A DNA stretch of 64,000 nt from Nibricoccus aquaticus (GTDB lineage: Bacteria; Verrucomicrobiota; Verrucomicrobiia; Opitutales; Opitutaceae), in assembly GCF_002310495.1 (NCBI RefSeq), contig NZ_CP023344.1, positions 1,054,001 through 1,118,000 of the forward strand. The letters are read 5' to 3'. This document shows positions 2,586 to 63,022 of the stretch, piece by piece (the stretch's first letter is position 1; each line of letters begins with the position of its first letter). The notes beneath the pieces were generated by a model. It was not told where the DNA came from. It saw only the letters and a program-made list of their open reading frames with translations, and did not search any database. Both the position numbers and the translations under genes were made by a program.

Positions 2586-3517
2586 GCCTCGGCAAACGCG
2601 AACTCGCTCTTCTCGCCGCCATCGCCGTGCTCTTCGCGCTGCCGCTCTTCGGCGTATCCGGATTCTACACACTCGGCAATCTCCGCAATCTCGTCATCGA
2701 CAACCTGCCCGTGCTCATCGCCGCCATCGGCATGACCATCGTTATCGTCGCCGCGCAGATCGACATCTCCATCGGCTCCGTCTTCGCCGTCTGCGGCGCG
2801 CTCGCCGGTCTCGCCGCCAAGGCCGGCCTGCCCATGCCGCTCGTCGTCCTCACGACCGTCGCCGCCGGCGCAGCCTTCGGCGGACTCAACGGCCTGCTCG
2901 TCTCCCGCTTCGGCATCCCCGCCATCATCACCACGCTCGGCACGATGGTGATCCTCCGCAACGCCATCATCCGCGCCACCGGCGGCGACTGGATTCAAGA
3001 CCTCCCCTCCAGCTTCCAGTGGTTCGGCCTCGGCCAGCAAACCGCTCAACCGCTCTACATCGCCTCCGCCCTCATACTCTTCGCACTCTTCGCGTGGGCG
3101 CTCCGCAACACGTCCGCCGGCCGCAGCTTCTACGCCGTCGGTTGCGATCACGAAGCTTCCCGTCGCATCGGCCTCAATCCACCCAACGTCGTCCTCGCCG
3201 CCTTCGTGCTCATGGGCGCGCTCACCGCCGCCGCCGCCCTGCTCAACTTCACCCGCTATCCCACCATCGAGACCAACGCCGGCCTCGGCCTCGAACTCAA
3301 AGTCATCGCCGCTGTCGTCGTCGGCGGCACCGCCATCACCGGCGGACGCGGCTCACTCTTCGGCACGCTGCTCGGCGTCATCCTCCTCGGCGCCATCGGC
3401 ACCGTATTCACTTTCCTACACGTCAACCCGGCTTGGGAAAAAGCCATCCAAGGCGCGATAATCCTCGCCGCCGTCGTCAGCGATACCGCGCTCGGCAAGA
3501 AGGAGGCCGCCACGTGA
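2582..3517 (+). CDS. Sugar ABC transporter permease 1 (RbsC family)
   Basis: This 311-residue inner-membrane permease belongs to the branched-chain amino acid/ribose permease family. Hydrophobic segments run through the protein, and the family motif IDISIGSVFAVCGALAGLAA is present near residue 60. The loop GIPAIITTLGTMVILRNA and the C-terminal GGTAITGGRGSLFGTLLG are also characteristic of the family. It overlaps the ATPase gene (ATGA) and the next permease gene (GTGA), so all three are one translational unit. Two different permease genes in one operon is the arrangement of the rhamnose (RhaP/RhaQ) and AI-2 (LsrC/LsrD) importers, which use heterodimeric channels. Confidence 0.93.
   Translation: MSLGKRELALLAAIAVLFALPLFGVSGFYTLGNLRNLVIDNLPVLIAAIGMTIVIVAAQIDISIGSVFAVCGALAGLAAKAGLPMPLVVLTTVAAGAAFGGLNGLLVSRFGIPAIITTLGTMVILRNAIIRATGGDWIQDLPSSFQWFGLGQQTAQPLYIASALILFALFAWALRNTSAGRSFYAVGCDHEASRRIGLNPPNVVLAAFVLMGALTAAAALLNFTRYPTIETNAGLGLELKVIAAVVVGGTAITGGRGSLFGTLLGVILLGAIGTVFTFLHVNPAWEKAIQGAIILAAVVSDTALGKKEAAT
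3500..3506 (+). promoter_or_regulatory. Strong ribosome binding site for the GTG start at 3514
   Basis: AAGGAGG lies 7 bases before the GTG at 3514. Good Shine-Dalgarno sequences are scarce in this window, so this one is strong support for GTG as the start of the permease/binding-protein fusion, in preference to the longer open frame that begins at 3019 inside permease 1. Confidence 0.75.
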
Positions 3518-5619
3518 ACGCGCCGCAGCCCTACTTCATCCCCACCAAGCGCCCGTCGTTCCTCACGCGTTGGTGCCCCAACGCCGAGTGGGTCCTGCTC
3601 CTCGTCCTCGCGCTCGAGATCGCCGTCTTCGCCATCGCAGGCGACAACTTCCTCTCCGTCGAAAACGGTTTCGAGATCACGCGCCTCGCCGCCGAAATCG
3701 GCCTGCTCGCCTTCGGTCTCACTCTCGTCATCAAGACCGGCGGCATCGATCTCTCCGTCGGCTCGATGATGGGCCTCGGCGCCGTCGTCCTCGGCGCATC
3801 CTGGTCCGGCCTCGGCCTTCCCATCTGGATCGCCGCCACGCTCACCGTCGTCCTCGGAGCCGCCGGCGGCGCGCTCAACGGCCTGCTCATCACGCGCCTT
3901 CGCGTCCCTCCGCTCATCGTCACGCTCGGCACCTTCTCCCTCTTCCGCGGCCTCGCCGAAGCCGCGACCGGCGGCTACGTCAGCTACACCGGCTTCCCGT
4001 CGTCCTTCCTCGCCCTCGGCCAAAACTACCTCGGCGGTTTTCTCCCCGTTCAGTTCATCGTCTTCCTCGTCGTTTTCATCGCGCTCTGGCTGCTGCTTCA
4101 CCGCACCGTCTTCGGCCGCGAGCTCACCGCCCTCGGCTTCAACGCCGCCGGAGCCCGTTTCGCCGGTGTGCGCGTAGGGTCGATCACACTACGGAGCTAC
4201 ATCATCTGCGGCATCTGCGCTGCGCTCGCAGGCATCGTCTACGTCGCCCGCATCGGTCAGGCCAAAGCCGACGCCGGCACCGGCTACGAACTCCTAGCCA
4301 TCGCCGCCGTCGTTCTCGGCGGCACCGCCATCGCCGGCGGACGCGGCACGCTTCACGGCACGTTGCTCGGCCTGCTCTGTCTCGTCGTCCTCCAAAACGG
4401 CCTGCGCCTCTCCGGTCAGCCCAGCGAGATCGCCGGTCTCTGCGCCGGCCTCATCCTGATCGTCGCCATCGCGCTGAACCAGCTCTGGAACCGCCAGCAA
4501 CGCGCCGCGCAAATCGCCAGCACCCGCCCCCTTTCCAACAACCCCAACGCCACCTCTTCCGACTTTGATATGAAAAACAGCCAGGTTGCCCTCATCATCG
4601 CCGCCATCCTCGGCGGCGCCGTCCTCATCGCCGCGAGCAACATCTTCCTCGCCCGCTCGCTCACCGGTTCCCCCGCAGCCCGCAACGCCTCAGGCTCGCC
4701 CGAGCCGGTCGCGAAAAAACTCGTCGTCGCCATGACGCCGAAAGCCAAGGCCGACCCCTACTTCGTCTCCTGCAAACAAGGCGCCGACGAAGCCGCCGCC
4801 AAACTCGGCGTCGATATCCTATGGGACGCACCGACCGATCCCGATCCCGCGAAGCAAAACGAAATCGTCGAGGCATGGATCACCAAAGGCGTCGACGTCA
4901 TCGCCGCCAGCTGCGCCAGTCCCGAAGCCATTTCCTCCGTCCTCCGCAAAGCCCAGCAACGCGGCATCAAGGTCATCACGTGGGACGCCGACGCCCGCTC
5001 CGACGCCCGCAGTTTCTTCGTGAATCAAGCCACCGCCCAAGGCATCGGCTCCACGCTTGCCGACGAAGGCTCCCGCCTCGCCGGCGGCGAAGGCGAATAC
5101 GCGATCATCACCGCCTCGCTCACCGACGCTAATCAGAACGAGTGGATCAAGTTCATCAAAGAGCGCATGGCCGCCGCGCACCCGAAGATGAAACTCGCCG
5201 CCATCCACCCGTGCGACGGCCAGCGCGACAAGGCCATGCTCGAGGCCAAGAACATCACGCGCGCCTACCCCAACGTGAAGTCCATCCTCGCCATCTGCTC
5301 CCCCGCCGTTCCCGGCGCCGCCGAAGCCCTCAAACAAGAAGGCCGCACCAACGTAAAACTCACCGGCCTCTCCACGCCGAATCTGAATCGCGAATACGTC
5401 AAAGACGGCTGGGTCCAGTCCATCGTCCTCTGGAACACCATGGACCTCGGCTACCTCACCGTCACCGCCGCCAAAGCGCTCCACGACGGCTCGCTCGCCC
5501 CCGGCGCTTCCAGCGTCGCCGCCGGCAAACTCGGCTCGATCGCCATCGACGGCGACAACATCCTCCTCGGAAAACCCTTCGTCTTCACCAAAGAGAACAT
5601 CGATCAGTTCAAATTCTGA
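3514..5619 (+). CDS. Sugar ABC transporter permease 2 fused in frame to substrate-binding protein (RhaQ/LsrD + RhaS/LsrB-like)
   Basis: This is one uninterrupted 701-codon frame. Residues 1 to about 325 are an RbsC-type permease (IDLSVGSMMGLGAVVLGAS, GGTAIAGGRGTLHGTLLG). A polar linker of about 30 residues follows. At residue 353 (ATG at 4570) begins a hydrophobic export/anchor segment (ALIIAAILGGAVLIAAS) and then a periplasmic type-I sugar-binding protein. That part matches the RhaS/LsrB family throughout (WDAPTDPDPAKQNEIVEAWI, ITWDADARSD, NQNEW, STPNLNREYVKDG) and ends FTKENIDQFKF, close to the LsrB ending. No Shine-Dalgarno precedes 4570. Either the binding protein is tethered to the permease, or the internal ATG gives a separate 349-residue product. 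The ligand (rhamnose, AI-2 or another sugar) is undecided. Confidence 0.85.
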   Translation: MNAPQPYFIPTKRPSFLTRWCPNAEWVLLLVLALEIAVFAIAGDNFLSVENGFEITRLAAEIGLLAFGLTLVIKTGGIDLSVGSMMGLGAVVLGASWSGLGLPIWIAATLTVVLGAAGGALNGLLITRLRVPPLIVTLGTFSLFRGLAEAATGGYVSYTGFPSSFLALGQNYLGGFLPVQFIVFLVVFIALWLLLHRTVFGRELTALGFNAAGARFAGVRVGSITLRSYIICGICAALAGIVYVARIGQAKADAGTGYELLAIAAVVLGGTAIAGGRGTLHGTLLGLLCLVVLQNGLRLSGQPSEIAGLCAGLILIVAIALNQLWNRQQRAAQIASTRPLSNNPNATSSDFDMKNSQVALIIAAILGGAVLIAASNIFLARSLTGSPAARNASGSPEPVAKKLVVAMTPKAKADPYFVSCKQGADEAAAKLGVDILWDAPTDPDPAKQNEIVEAWITKGVDVIAASCASPEAISSVLRKAQQRGIKVITWDADARSDARSFFVNQATAQGIGSTLADEGSRLAGGEGEYAIITASLTDANQNEWIKFIKERMAAAHPKMKLAAIHPCDGQRDKAMLEAKNITRAYPNVKSILAICSPAVPGAAEALKQEGRTNVKLTGLSTPNLNREYVKDGWVQSIVLWNTMDLGYLTVTAAKALHDGSLAPGASSVAAGKLGSIAIDGDNILLGKPFVFTKENIDQFKF

Positions 5620-13254: not shown

Positions 13255-14883
13255 TCACCACACCAGCAACCCACCCGCAAATGTCAGCCCAGCGCCCACG
13301 CTGCAAAAGATGATCTTGTCGCCCGCGTTGAAGATCTCCTCTTCCGCAGCCCAGCCGAGCGCCATCGAGACACTCGCGGCCGACGTGTTGCCGTACTTCC
13401 CGATCGTCACGACGAACTTCTCGTAAGGAATCCCCACGCGTTTCCCAACCGCGCGCAGGATGCGCTCGTTCGCCTGATGCGGCACAATCCACGCGACCTC
13501 GTCCGGTTTCAAATTGTGACGCTTCAGCGTTGCCTCGATCTGATCCGCAAAGGCGATCACCGCGTGCTTGAACACCGCGCCGCCATTCATCTGGAGGAAA
13601 AAGTCCTCCTGGTCCTTGCCCTGCGGATCGGGAAACGGCCGGATCGCTCCACCACCCGGACGCTGGATCGCCTCGAACTGATCCGCATCGCCCGAGAGCG
13701 CCATACGCGCCAGCCGATGTCCGCCAGCCGCATCCGTGAGCACCGCCGCCCCCGCGCCATCACCAAAGAGAAACGCCGTGGCGTGATCCTTCGGATTCGT
13801 GATGCGCGACAACAACTCCGCCGTGACCACGATCAACTTTTTCGCCGTGCCCGAACGGATGAACGCGCGCCCCACTTCGAGCGCGTACAACCAGCCCGAA
13901 CACGCCGCATTCAGATCGAACGCCAGCGCGCGCGGAATGCCCAGTTGCTTGGCCAGCGCGCTCGCCATCGCCGGTACCGGCTGGTCCGGGATCAACGTCG
14001 CCATGATCACGCCATCAATCTCCTTCACATCGATCTTCGCCTGCTCGAGCGCGTGCTGCACCGCGATTACCGCGAGGCTCGTCGCCGTCTCGCCATTCAC
14101 CGCGTAACGCCGCTCGCGGATGCCAGTGAGCTTGATCACCTCTTCCTCGGTCATATCCGGGAAGGACTTCAAAATTTCGCTGTTTGAACGGATGCCCGAC
14201 GGGATCGCGTATCCGACACCCGCGATACACACCGTCTCGGCCGCGCGCAGATCGAAACCCGCCGCACCGCCAGCAGACGCCGTCGCTCCAGCGCCGGCAT
14301 CCGCAACCGCTCCGCCCGCTTTCCTCTTCTCCAGATAAGCCGCCACATCATCGCCCGACACCCGCCCGCCAGGGCCGGTCGCTCCGATGTCCGTGATCGC
14401 CGCCGGATCGAGCCCGGCCTCTTGCGCGATCTTGCTCGCGCGCGGCGTCCACTGGATACCCGTGCGCGCCGGAGCGGCAGCCACCGAAGTCACCGGCTGT
14501 GTCGTCACCCGCGCCACCGGCGCAGCCACGACCACCGTTTTCGCCGCAGCCGCATGGCCATTTGCGGCGACTGCAGGAGCCTTCGTCACTGCAGCTTCCT
14601 CGCCCGCCTTCACTTCCAAATGTTTGAGCGACACATCGCTCGTCTCGATCCGCAGAAACGGCGCACCCGTCGAAATGATGTCCCCAGCCCGGCCGACCAC
14701 CGCCCGGATTGTTCCGGCGCACGGCGACTCAAACTCGAAGACCGACTTGTCGCTCTCCAGCTCCGCCAGCTTCTGCCCCTTGGTCACGGCCGCGCCGGGC
14801 TCGATCACGATGTCGATCACCGTGAGCTCGTTGACGGTCGCACCCATTGAGGGCACGGGCACTTCAATCAGAAATGTTTCCAT
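13255..14883 (-). CDS. Lipoyl domain - peripheral subunit-binding domain - beta-ketoacyl-ACP synthase III fusion
   Basis: A 542-residue three-part protein. (1) Residues 1-82 form a lipoyl domain like that of 2-oxoacid dehydrogenase E2 chains, with the lipoylation site Lys46 in ESDKSVFEFESP. (2) An Ala/Pro linker leads to a peripheral subunit-binding domain (about 145-186: TPRASKIAQEAGLDP, then GATGPGGRVSGDDV), which docks E1 or E3 in known complexes. (3) Residues about 215-542 are a complete FabH-type condensing enzyme with an intact triad: Cys328 (NAACSG), His469 (VPHQAN) and Asn499 (YGNTSAAS). The E2 acyltransferase domain is absent and replaced by KAS III. The ATG at 14883 begins METFLIEVPVPSMG; upstream codons are not domain-like. 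The inferred role is condensing lipoyl-bound acyl groups with malonyl-ACP. Confidence 0.9.
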   Translation of the reverse strand: METFLIEVPVPSMGATVNELTVIDIVIEPGAAVTKGQKLAELESDKSVFEFESPCAGTIRAVVGRAGDIISTGAPFLRIETSDVSLKHLEVKAGEEAAVTKAPAVAANGHAAAAKTVVVAAPVARVTTQPVTSVAAAPARTGIQWTPRASKIAQEAGLDPAAITDIGATGPGGRVSGDDVAAYLEKRKAGGAVADAGAGATASAGGAAGFDLRAAETVCIAGVGYAIPSGIRSNSEILKSFPDMTEEEVIKLTGIRERRYAVNGETATSLAVIAVQHALEQAKIDVKEIDGVIMATLIPDQPVPAMASALAKQLGIPRALAFDLNAACSGWLYALEVGRAFIRSGTAKKLIVVTAELLSRITNPKDHATAFLFGDGAGAAVLTDAAGGHRLARMALSGDADQFEAIQRPGGGAIRPFPDPQGKDQEDFFLQMNGGAVFKHAVIAFADQIEATLKRHNLKPDEVAWIVPHQANERILRAVGKRVGIPYEKFVVTIGKYGNTSAASVSMALGWAAEEEIFNAGDKIIFCSVGAGLTFAGGLLVW

Positions 14884-60984: not shown

Positions 60985-61815
60985 ATGCTCACCGACCACC
61001 AACTCGCCCTCAAAGCCCCCGCGCTCCGCCGCCGCATGCTCCAGCTCATCGCCGACGCCGGAGCCGGCCACACCGGCGGCGGCCTCTCGTGCCTCGACAT
61101 CCTCAACGTCCTCTACAACCGCGTGCTCAACATCACGCCCGAGACCGTCGACTCGCCCACCCGCGATCGCTACGTCCAAAGCAAAGGTCACTGCGTCGAA
61201 GCCCTCTACGCCGTCATGGCCGACCGCGGTTACTTCCCCGACTCCGACCTCAACACCGTCTGCCACTACAAATCCTACTACGTCGGCCATCCGACCCGTA
61301 AGATCAAAGGCATGGAAATGAACACCGGCGCCCTCGGCCACGGCCTCCCGATCTGCATCGGCATGGCCCTCGCCGCCCGCCAGGACTCCGCCGCCTTCCG
61401 CGTCTTCACGCTCCTCGGCGACGGCGAACTCGCCGAAGGTTCCAACTGGGAAGCCGCCATGGCCGCCGCCCACTACAAACTCGATAACCTCGTCGCCATC
61501 CTCGACCACAACACGCTCCAGATCACCGGCCACACGAAGGACGTCATGTCCAACGAGCCCCTCGACGAAAAGTGGCGCGCCTTCGGCTGGGAAGTCCGCT
61601 CCATCAACGGCCACGATTACGCCGAACTCACCAAAGCGCTGACAACGCCACATCCGGGAAAGCCGCTCATCGTCATCGCCAACACCGTCAAGGGCAAAGG
61701 CGTCAGCTTCATGGAAAACGTCGGCAAATGGCACCACGGCGTTCCTAGCGAAACCGAACTCGCCACCGCCCTCACCGAACTCACCGCCCTGGAGAAAAAA
61801 CTCTCCGCCGCCTGA
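60985..61815 (+). CDS. Transketolase, N-terminal (TPP-binding) subunit
   Basis: A 276-residue protein equal to the N-terminal third of transketolase. The thiamine diphosphate/metal motif is LLGDGELAEGSNWEAAM, with NTLQITG completing the G-D-G...N pattern. Substrate-side blocks are DAGAGHTGGGLSCLDILNVL, RDRYVQSKGHCVEALYAVM and MNTGALGHGLPICIGMALA. The C-terminus (KGKGVSFMENVGKWHHGVPS) is the usual end of the N-subunit. The pyrimidine-binding and C-terminal domains are encoded by the next gene, so the active enzyme should be an alpha2beta2-type complex. The ATG at 60985 directly follows a CT-rich leader. Confidence 0.94.
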   Translation: MLTDHQLALKAPALRRRMLQLIADAGAGHTGGGLSCLDILNVLYNRVLNITPETVDSPTRDRYVQSKGHCVEALYAVMADRGYFPDSDLNTVCHYKSYYVGHPTRKIKGMEMNTGALGHGLPICIGMALAARQDSAAFRVFTLLGDGELAEGSNWEAAMAAAHYKLDNLVAILDHNTLQITGHTKDVMSNEPLDEKWRAFGWEVRSINGHDYAELTKALTTPHPGKPLIVIANTVKGKGVSFMENVGKWHHGVPSETELATALTELTALEKKLSAA

Positions 61816-61838
61816 GTTAACTAAACCACAGAGTCAGC

Positions 61839-61926
61839 TTCCTCCGTATCCTTCCGCATCCCTCTGTATCTGTGGTTAAAAATCCGCCCTCCGAAACCTT
61901 AGCGTCGTTGCGTCGTCGCGCTTAAC
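61839..61926 (+). repeat. Dispersed repeat block between the two transketolase genes
   Basis: CTTCCTCCGTATCCTTCC, GCATCCCTCTGTATCTGTGG, TTAAAAATCCGCCCTCCG, AAACCTTAGCGTCGTTGCG and TCGTCGCGCTTAAC. It is the second copy of the block at 60825-60910. Confidence 0.75.
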
Positions 61927-62023
61927 AAAACCACCGCGCCACCAATCACGCTCCGTTTCCGCCGACACGCCGCCCGTTCCGTCGCCTTTCACTCTTCACC
62001 CTTCACTTTTCACTCTTCCTCCC

Positions 62024-63022
62024 ATGAGCGCTCCTGCTCCCTCCATGTTCACCCCCGCGGCCACCGCGGTCGCCCAAAAGCTCGGCCTCAAAAAAGGCCG
62101 CGCCAACCTCGAAGAATTCGCCGACACGCTCCAGGCGCTCGCGACCGCCGACCGCAACATCGTCGCCGTCACGTCCGACTCCCGCGGCTCCGGCAAACTC
62201 GCGCCCTACGGCAAAGCGCTCCCGAAGCAGATCGTCGAAGTCGGCATCGCCGAGCAAAACCTCGTCGGCATCACCGCCGGCCTCGCCGCCTGCGGCAAAA
62301 AAGCCTTCGGCGTCTCGCCCTCCTGCTTCCTCACCGCGCGCTCCCTCGAGCAGATCAAAAACGACATCTGCTACTCGAACGTCCCCGGCGTAGTCATCGG
62401 CATCAGCTCCGGCGTCAGCTACGGTGCGCTCGGCAGCACGCACCACTCGCTCCACGACCTCGCCGTCCTCCGCGCGATCAACAACCTCACCATCATCGTC
62501 CCCGCGGATAACTTCGAAACCCGCGAAGCCATCAAATACGCCGCCGCCGCCCCGCGCCCCGTCTTCGTCCGCTTCGGCAAAGCCGCGATGTACGACCTCG
62601 CCCCCGCTGGCGCGACCTTCACCACCGGCAAAGCTCTCACCCTCCGCGAAGGCAAGGACGTCGCTTTCATCGCCAACGGCGAAACCGTCGTCCACGCCCT
62701 CCTCGCCGCCGAAAACCTCGCCGCCCAAGGCATCTCCGCCCGCGTGCTCAGTCTCCACACCGTGAAGCCGCTCGACACCGCCGCGATCCTCGCCGCCGGC
62801 CGCGAATGCCGCGCCGTCATCACCGTCGAAGAACACATGATCAACGGCGGCGTCGGCGAAGCCGTCGCCTCGACACTGCTCCAAGCCGGCGTCGCTCCGA
62901 AGTTCAAGATGGTCGGCTTCCCCGACGAAGACACCGTCACCGGCGCCCAAGCCGACCTCTTCCGCCACTACGGCATCAGCATGGAAGGCCTCACCGAAAC
63001 CACACAAAAACTTCTCGGCTGA
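62024..63022 (+). CDS. Transketolase, C-terminal (pyrimidine-binding) subunit
   Basis: A 332-residue partner of the preceding subunit. It begins with the pyrimidine-binding domain (about 30-180), with VAVTSDSRGSGKLAPYGK, the cofactor-activating Glu in VEVGIAEQNLVGITAGLA, and GVSYGALGSTHHSLHDLAVL. The transketolase C-terminal domain follows (about 195-320, EGKDVAFIANGETVVHALLA, LSLHTVKPLDTAAILA, VTVEEHMINGGVGEAVAS). Start and length match the split family. It is separated from the N-subunit by 208 bases of repeats and CT-rich leader instead of the tight spacing usual for two-subunit enzymes. Confidence 0.94.
   Translation: MSAPAPSMFTPAATAVAQKLGLKKGRANLEEFADTLQALATADRNIVAVTSDSRGSGKLAPYGKALPKQIVEVGIAEQNLVGITAGLAACGKKAFGVSPSCFLTARSLEQIKNDICYSNVPGVVIGISSGVSYGALGSTHHSLHDLAVLRAINNLTIIVPADNFETREAIKYAAAAPRPVFVRFGKAAMYDLAPAGATFTTGKALTLREGKDVAFIANGETVVHALLAAENLAAQGISARVLSLHTVKPLDTAAILAAGRECRAVITVEEHMINGGVGEAVASTLLQAGVAPKFKMVGFPDEDTVTGAQADLFRHYGISMEGLTETTQKLLG

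Follow-up and report, generated by a model that had tools for sequence, protein, structure and literature searches.

The window, as the whole 64,000-nucleotide stretch of Nibricoccus aquaticus DNA is called here, belongs to a complete genome of 4.73 Mb on a single contig. On its minus strand, an uninterrupted ORF of 542 aa, running from an ATG at 14883 to a stop at 13255, encodes one polypeptide, referred to below as the fusion, in which a lipoyl domain and a peripheral subunit-binding domain (PSBD) precede a complete KAS III. The parts of the gene are as follows:

13255 to 14883, minus strand: lipoyl-PSBD-KAS III fusion gene, 542 aa (ORF, Pfam, NCBIfam and orthologues)
14647 to 14865, minus strand: lipoyl domain, aa 7-79 (Pfam PF00364, Biotin_lipoyl, E 5.4e-14)
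14746 to 14748, minus strand: codon of Lys46, the predicted lipoylation site (ESDKS, in ESDKSVFEF); invariant, with K in 88/88 aligned lipoyl modules
14449 to 14646, minus strand: first flexible linker, Ala/Pro/Val-rich and typical of E2 chains, aa 80-145 (sequence; pLDDT <50 at aa 95-140)
14344 to 14448, minus strand: PSBD, aa 146-180 (PF02817, E3_binding, E 1.5e-7)
14236 to 14343, minus strand: second linker, Ala/Gly-rich, aa 181-216, the site of a two-gene split in one Opitutaceae clade (sequence and split orthologues)
13258 to 14235, minus strand: KAS III domain, aa 217-542 (PF08545/PF08541; NF006829 and TIGR00747 above cut-off)

All four Pfam domains of the fusion exceed their curated cut-offs, the two within the KAS III being ACP_syn_III at aa 322-397 (4e-25) and ACP_syn_III_C at aa 453-542 (3e-30), and the KAS part scores 296.7 bits against a cut-off of 292.1 in the NCBIfam fabH model, which places it in the FabH subfamily. 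Two hallmarks of E2 chains are present, namely an N-terminal lipoyl domain with a modifiable lysine and a PSBD above cut-off, and a Pfam search of the protein found no CoA acyltransferase core (PF00198). The AlphaFold2 model of the whole fusion, built from an input of 24 sequences, was poor (mean pLDDT 65, pTM 0.49); the lipoyl domain and PSBD were acceptable, and, since the KAS III lay partly below a pLDDT of 50, only a FabH-like fold has been taken from the prediction.

An earlier, sequence-only reading of this DNA had described a single frame holding a lipoyl domain, a PSBD and a complete KAS III, a description that the intact ORF and its four Pfam domains bear out. Assembly error is unlikely because the window lies in a single-contig genome, and the full-length fusions of relatives, with 59 fused orthologues in all, exclude a frameshift or misassembly joining two genes. 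That reading was also correct in placing no E1 or E3 gene in the window: the only related genes are those of a two-gene transketolase at 60985-63022, which explain the weak E1_dh and Transketolase_C matches of the window, so that the E1_dh match at 61282, once considered as a dehydrogenase E1, has been discarded. The N- and C-terminal halves of this transketolase are encoded by two adjacent genes on the plus strand. Elsewhere in the window, a plus-strand ORF (3019-5619) has an Arg/Pro-rich start, followed in frame by sequence like that of a sugar ABC permease and of a periplasmic sugar-binding protein, and is possibly a permease-binding protein fusion.

Distribution and gene neighbourhood

The 59 fused orthologues recovered all come from Opitutales, or from records of a named collection that are labelled only Verrucomicrobia or Opitutia. 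Searches of the class (384 genomes) and of the phylum (388) placed complete fusions in this order only, where the window's own family has them together with f10 and f90; the phylum-wide search detected none in the genomes that it sampled from beyond Opitutales. Full-length fusions at 55-81% identity are present in many further genomes, named MAGs and isolates. A single-sequence search of the named collection retrieved the fusion from Opitutaceae bacterium EW11, Ereboglobus, Opitutus and Rariglobus MAGs, Pelagicoccus and strain DG1235, among others, and Candidatus Synoicihabitans palmerolidicus also carries it. Across Verrucomicrobiota, the domain order first noticed in the window thus proved to be the same in three GTDB families, all within Opitutales.

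The proposal that an E2 acyltransferase has been swapped for a KAS III requires refinement on two points: the fusion has been split again in one lineage, and some Opitutaceae retain the lipoyl-PSBD module after losing this KAS III. Three states are found at the pyrG-kdsA-X locus, which can hold the fused gene, adjacent lipoyl-PSBD and KAS III genes, or a lipoyl-PSBD gene alone. In the split state, found in one Opitutaceae clade, the two genes overlap or are separated by between a few and about 280 bases. In a KAS-domain tree, the fusion family is set apart from canonical FabH by a long branch with full support, and the split forms gather into one clade among the fused forms, the sole exception (L054) being a fragment at a contig edge. 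This topology makes the fused form most likely ancestral in the sampled families, with a single split and loss of the KAS III in some genera as the most likely later events. Stand-alone lipoyl-PSBD genes, in genomes without a KAS III of the family, were found beside pyrG-kdsA in seven genomes of the Opitutaceae genera g5, g6, g11 and g14 (L144, L145, L146, L147, L148, L149 and L150); a KdsA-lipoyl fusion suspected in one of them (G150, L148) was an out-of-frame reading ahead of the normal start.

Individual copies also depart from the common form. One genome of g15, a genus that the KAS III tree places with Pelagicoccus, has a second, fast-evolving copy of the fusion (L053, G236:C66:12449-13978) with 52-55% identity and a long branch. 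Another genome (L151, G408:C65) has one in-frame TAA in its fusion gene, after the KAS domain has begun but ahead of the catalytic part of that domain; this would be either a broken copy or an assembly error.

The fusion usually lies downstream of pyrG-kdsA, and its neighbours in the loci examined are pyrG, kdsA, rsmE, adenosine kinase and proA. In the window it is displaced from pyrG-kdsA and sits between a GNAT gene and proA. No E1 or E3 gene was encoded next to the fusion in any of the context loci examined.

The orphan E1 and the lipoyl-PSBD module

The inventory of the complete genome provides a candidate partner for the fusion. Three E1s are encoded, namely the PDH alpha/beta pair (genome positions 13102/14791), OGDH (459620) and a fused alpha-beta E1 (372137), and three PSBD proteins, namely the PDH E2, SucB and the fusion, against only two catalytic E2 domains, which were assigned to the PDH E2 and SucB above NCBIfam cut-offs. 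This leaves the fused E1 without an E2 and the fusion without any other E1. A dedicated branched-chain E2 acyltransferase was not found in the genome, the PDH E2 and SucB being the only ones present; LipA, LipB and E3-like genes are also encoded. The orphan gene is located as follows:

G000:C1:372032-374065: orphan fused alpha-beta E1, 678 aa

The alpha half of this E1 scores 100 and 97 bits with alpha chains of branched-chain dehydrogenases, above the 80 and 75 bits reached with PDH, and where human BCKDH has S162 and L164 it likewise carries Ser and Leu, in contrast to the Gly and Val of the genome's own PDH. The beta half scores slightly higher with PDH, the best match being the PDH beta chain of Geobacillus. 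The orphan E1 appears to be nearest to branched-chain 2-oxoacid dehydrogenases, and such weak sequence leanings suggest its substrate.

Co-occurrence was assessed in 132 Opitutales genomes, where orthologues of the E1 (at least 53% identity) were found in 23 and orthologues of the lipoyl-PSBD module in 22. Both were present in 21 genomes, neither in 108, and only three were discordant (Fisher p 4e-21, uncorrected for phylogeny). All three of the latter are broken into many contigs (390 to 900), and one of them (G443) has a KAS III tail at a contig edge. Moreover, a complete genome of the window's family (G024, genus g3) has none of the parts, and in a 96% complete genome (G377) the fusion is the sole PSBD protein and the orthologous E1 the sole E1 match, while an E3-like protein, LipA, LipB and GcvH are retained. 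Together these patterns are strong evidence that the orphan-type E1 and the lipoyl-PSBD module work together. Gene order, by comparison, counts against a joint assembly, E1 and fusion never being neighbours in the loci examined.

The fused alpha-beta E1 is also kept in both of the KAS III-less genomes that were sampled for it (G058 and G064). Retention of the lipoyl-PSBD module in such genomes, with the E1 where checked, indicates that the E1-lipoyl unit can work without the KAS III, and in these two genomes the acyl group must go elsewhere. A canonical FabH acting in trans might be the acceptor, or a PDH E2 passing the acyl group to CoA; canonical FabH retains its CoA site.

The E1 has a recurrent neighbourhood of its own, with kdsC directly after it and then, where the contig extends, lptA-lptB-hprK (L067:8033-13639 and L101-L116; nearly all checkable relatives). 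With the fusion in pyrG-kdsA clusters and the E1 in kdsC-lptA-lptB-hprK clusters, both are tied to Kdo/LPS genes. The location of a keto-acid E1 beside LPS genes is an unexpected tie.

Acyl donor, starter and product

The residues that bear on catalysis and on the choice of acyl donor are as follows:

13900 to 13902, minus strand: catalytic Cys328, aligned with E. coli FabH C112; present in 59/59 fused and 21/21 split forms
13477 to 13479, minus strand: catalytic His469, aligned with E. coli FabH H244; invariant
13387 to 13389, minus strand: catalytic Asn499, aligned with E. coli FabH N274; invariant
14128 to 14154, minus strand: lost CoA-binding stretch, aa 244-252, where T28/W32/R36 are replaced by M244/E248/L252 (alignment; PMC4606726)
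13783 to 13785, minus strand: His367 at the place of Arg151 (alignment; PMC4606726)

Lys46, Cys328, His469 and Asn499 were all named correctly in the sequence-only reading, as judged from the ESDKSVFEF motif and from alignment with the E. coli FabH triad. The Cys-His-Asn triad is kept in all 80 KAS IIIs of the family (59 fused and 21 split). Alignment of the 80 orthologues also shows retention of the basic residues that dock ACP, with K214, R249 and K256/K257 of E. coli corresponding to K439, R474 and K481/R482. The CoA-adenine site, in contrast, is lost in 80/80, whether fused or split, T28 being replaced by R, K or M, W32 by E, R36 by L, V, I or T, and R151 mostly by H or Y. FabH of the E. 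coli type holds CoA by stacking of Trp32 and Arg151 against the adenine, with bonds from Thr28 to the adenine and from Arg36 to the phosphopantetheine arm (PMC4606726). All four residues are present in 24/24 canonical FabHs, a set drawn from Verrucomicrobiota and one distant MAG that includes the window genome's own FabH.

Loss of the CoA site, retention of the ACP site and gain of a lipoyl arm are together what direct priming by an acyl-lipoyl donor would predict. This is strong evidence that stops short of proof, as an enzyme using some other donor in place of CoA, for example acyl-ACP, could equally have lost its CoA residues. The starter pocket has changed as well (F87V, F304V, F115W and I155F), with an opening at positions 87 and 304 in the alignment, and may fit a bulkier starter. 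Canonical FabHs of Opitutaceae (L051:7196-8188 and others) have L, M, I or V at the position of E. coli Phe87, and their own starter pocket may be wider as a result.

Branched chains are prominent in published lipid profiles. Iso- and anteiso-C15:0 are leading fatty acids of Lacunisphaera (Opitutaceae), which also has iso-C13:0 3-OH (PMC5303756), and they lead in Congregicoccus, Alterococcus and other Opitutia, the membranes of Alterococcaceae being rich in both (PMC12193912). Anteiso-C15:0 is prominent with C16:0 in genera of Opitutaceae (PMC13274419). Iso-C14:0 reaches up to 23% in Coraliomargarita, outside Opitutaceae (PMC10288369), so the lipid correlation is not exclusive. Because no branched-chain E2 is encoded, the fused E1 and the fusion would be the most obvious way of starting iso and anteiso chains, on lipid data that come from published species and are not matched to the searched genomes.

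The swap of an E2 acyltransferase for a KAS III is supported by the orphan E1, the co-occurrence, the loss of the CoA site, the invariance of Lys46 and the conservation in three families, every testable prediction that it makes for the genomes having come out positive. The fusion probably takes the place of the E2 in a third assembly resembling the 2-oxoacid dehydrogenases, one that would end in a C-C bond and not in transfer to CoA, with an acyl group, most likely branched, loaded by the E1 and condensed with malonyl-ACP. In this scheme, the orphan E1 would decarboxylate a 2-oxo acid, most likely a branched one derived from Val, Leu or Ile, and reductively acylate the lipoyl group expected on Lys46, while the PSBD would contact E1 and/or E3 and keep them beside the KAS III dimer. 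The lipoyl arm would then hand its S-acyl group directly to Cys328, the donor being acyl-dihydrolipoyl and not acyl-CoA. Malonyl-ACP docking at the retained basic patch would undergo decarboxylation and condensation to a branched 3-oxoacyl-ACP, predicted to prime fatty acids for iso and anteiso chains of the membrane and perhaps for 3-hydroxy chains of lipid A, and a shared E3 would re-oxidise the dihydrolipoyl group with NAD+. On balance, and with somewhat less assurance, such a CoA-independent keto-acid dehydrogenase/ketosynthase complex, with acyl-dihydrolipoyl as direct Claisen donor, may be favoured as the main route of branched-chain priming in Opitutales, leading to fatty acids or lipid A.

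Among the alternatives, the one that survives best, while still rather unlikely, keeps the acyl-lipoyl chemistry and assigns the KAS III to a dedicated product (3-hydroxy-iso chains of lipid A or a secondary lipid) and not to bulk membrane fatty acids. The Kdo/LPS clusters around the genes (pyrG-kdsA and kdsC-lptA-lptB), the iso-C13:0 3-OH of Lacunisphaera (PMC5303756) and the presence of a separate FabH for general priming are all in its favour; however, nothing beside the fusion was recognisable as a dedicated ACP, acyltransferase or tailoring gene, and the Kdo linkage could reflect hitch-hiking in an old operon. FabHs of known biochemistry typically use CoA thioesters, and a KAS III that still takes acyl-CoA or acetyl-CoA, with the lipoyl-PSBD part serving only as its anchor on a dehydrogenase complex, in the interest of channelling or regulation, would agree with a KAS domain above the FabH family cut-off and with the existence of the two parts as separate genes. 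This explanation is improbable in view of the CoA adenine and phosphate residues, which have gone from the 80 orthologues and are kept in the genome's separate canonical FabH, and of the lack of a third E2 acyltransferase in the genome that could make acyl-CoA. There is equally little chance that the lipoyl-to-KAS III chemistry is coupled to a pyruvate-specific E1, with acetoacetyl-ACP as product and CoA-free priming of straight chains. PDH and BCKDH E1s are closely related and the beta half of the orphan E1 does match Geobacillus PDH beta best, whereas its alpha half is nearer to BCKDH alpha and has the Ser/Leu pair, the starter pocket is enlarged (F87V/F304V), and the genome already has a complete set of PDH components as well as a canonical FabH. 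An artefact, whether misassembly, frameshift or a chance in-frame neighbour, is hardly conceivable, for although the copy with one in-frame stop in G408 demonstrates that single copies can break, the 59 fused orthologues, which come from isolates and MAGs of three families, agree in domain order and in their catalytic residues.

Comparison with known systems

The lipoyl arm is so far known as a carrier that delivers acyl groups to CoA or, with folate as the acceptor, aminomethyl groups. If the preferred reading of an acyl-lipoyl-primed KAS III is correct, this arm would also be the acyl donor of a synthase that forms C-C bonds, providing another way of priming type II fatty-acid synthesis, an explanation for iso and anteiso membranes in bacteria without a branched-chain E2, and a compact, CoA-free module for branched lipids. 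The taxa concerned are Opitutales (Verrucomicrobiota) of soil and water, in which a single locus, found fused, split or without the KAS III, offers a natural series for the evolution of substrate channelling. A full-text literature search, with subscription journals outside its scope, found no described lipoyl-KAS III protein or acyl-lipoyl ketosynthase, and no chain matched in PDB searches covers a lipoyl domain or PSBD together with a KAS III. The modules themselves are known and would be newly combined, while the reaction may well be new.

The KAS III fold is shared, according to the PDB matches, with enzymes of the PqsD, BioZ and CorB type, non-FabH KAS IIIs that use other acceptors or donors. 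With FabH, including branched types such as users of 2-methylbutyryl-CoA, the fusion family has in common the fold family, the Cys-His-Asn triad, the ACP-docking residues and a TIGR00747 score above cut-off; it differs in being joined to or paired with a lipoyl-PSBD module, in the loss of the CoA-adenine/phosphate site and in the F87V, F304V, F115W and I155F changes. With BkdB and the BCKDH E2 it shares the order of lipoyl domain, Ala/Pro-rich linker, PSBD, linker and catalytic domain, and the availability of an E1 for loading, but the PF00198 core is replaced by a KAS III and the expected product is 3-oxoacyl-ACP instead of acyl-CoA. Without PF00198 and without a CoA site, the fusion is neither a standard E2 nor a standard FabH, and would act as a hybrid of the two. 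In the two-step priming of Staphylococcus and Chlamydia, Bkd frees acyl-CoA and FabH picks it up (PMC10026030, PMC6167442). The inputs (branched 2-oxo acids and malonyl-ACP) and the expected output would be the same in Opitutales, whereas both steps would here share one polypeptide, without an E2 acyltransferase.
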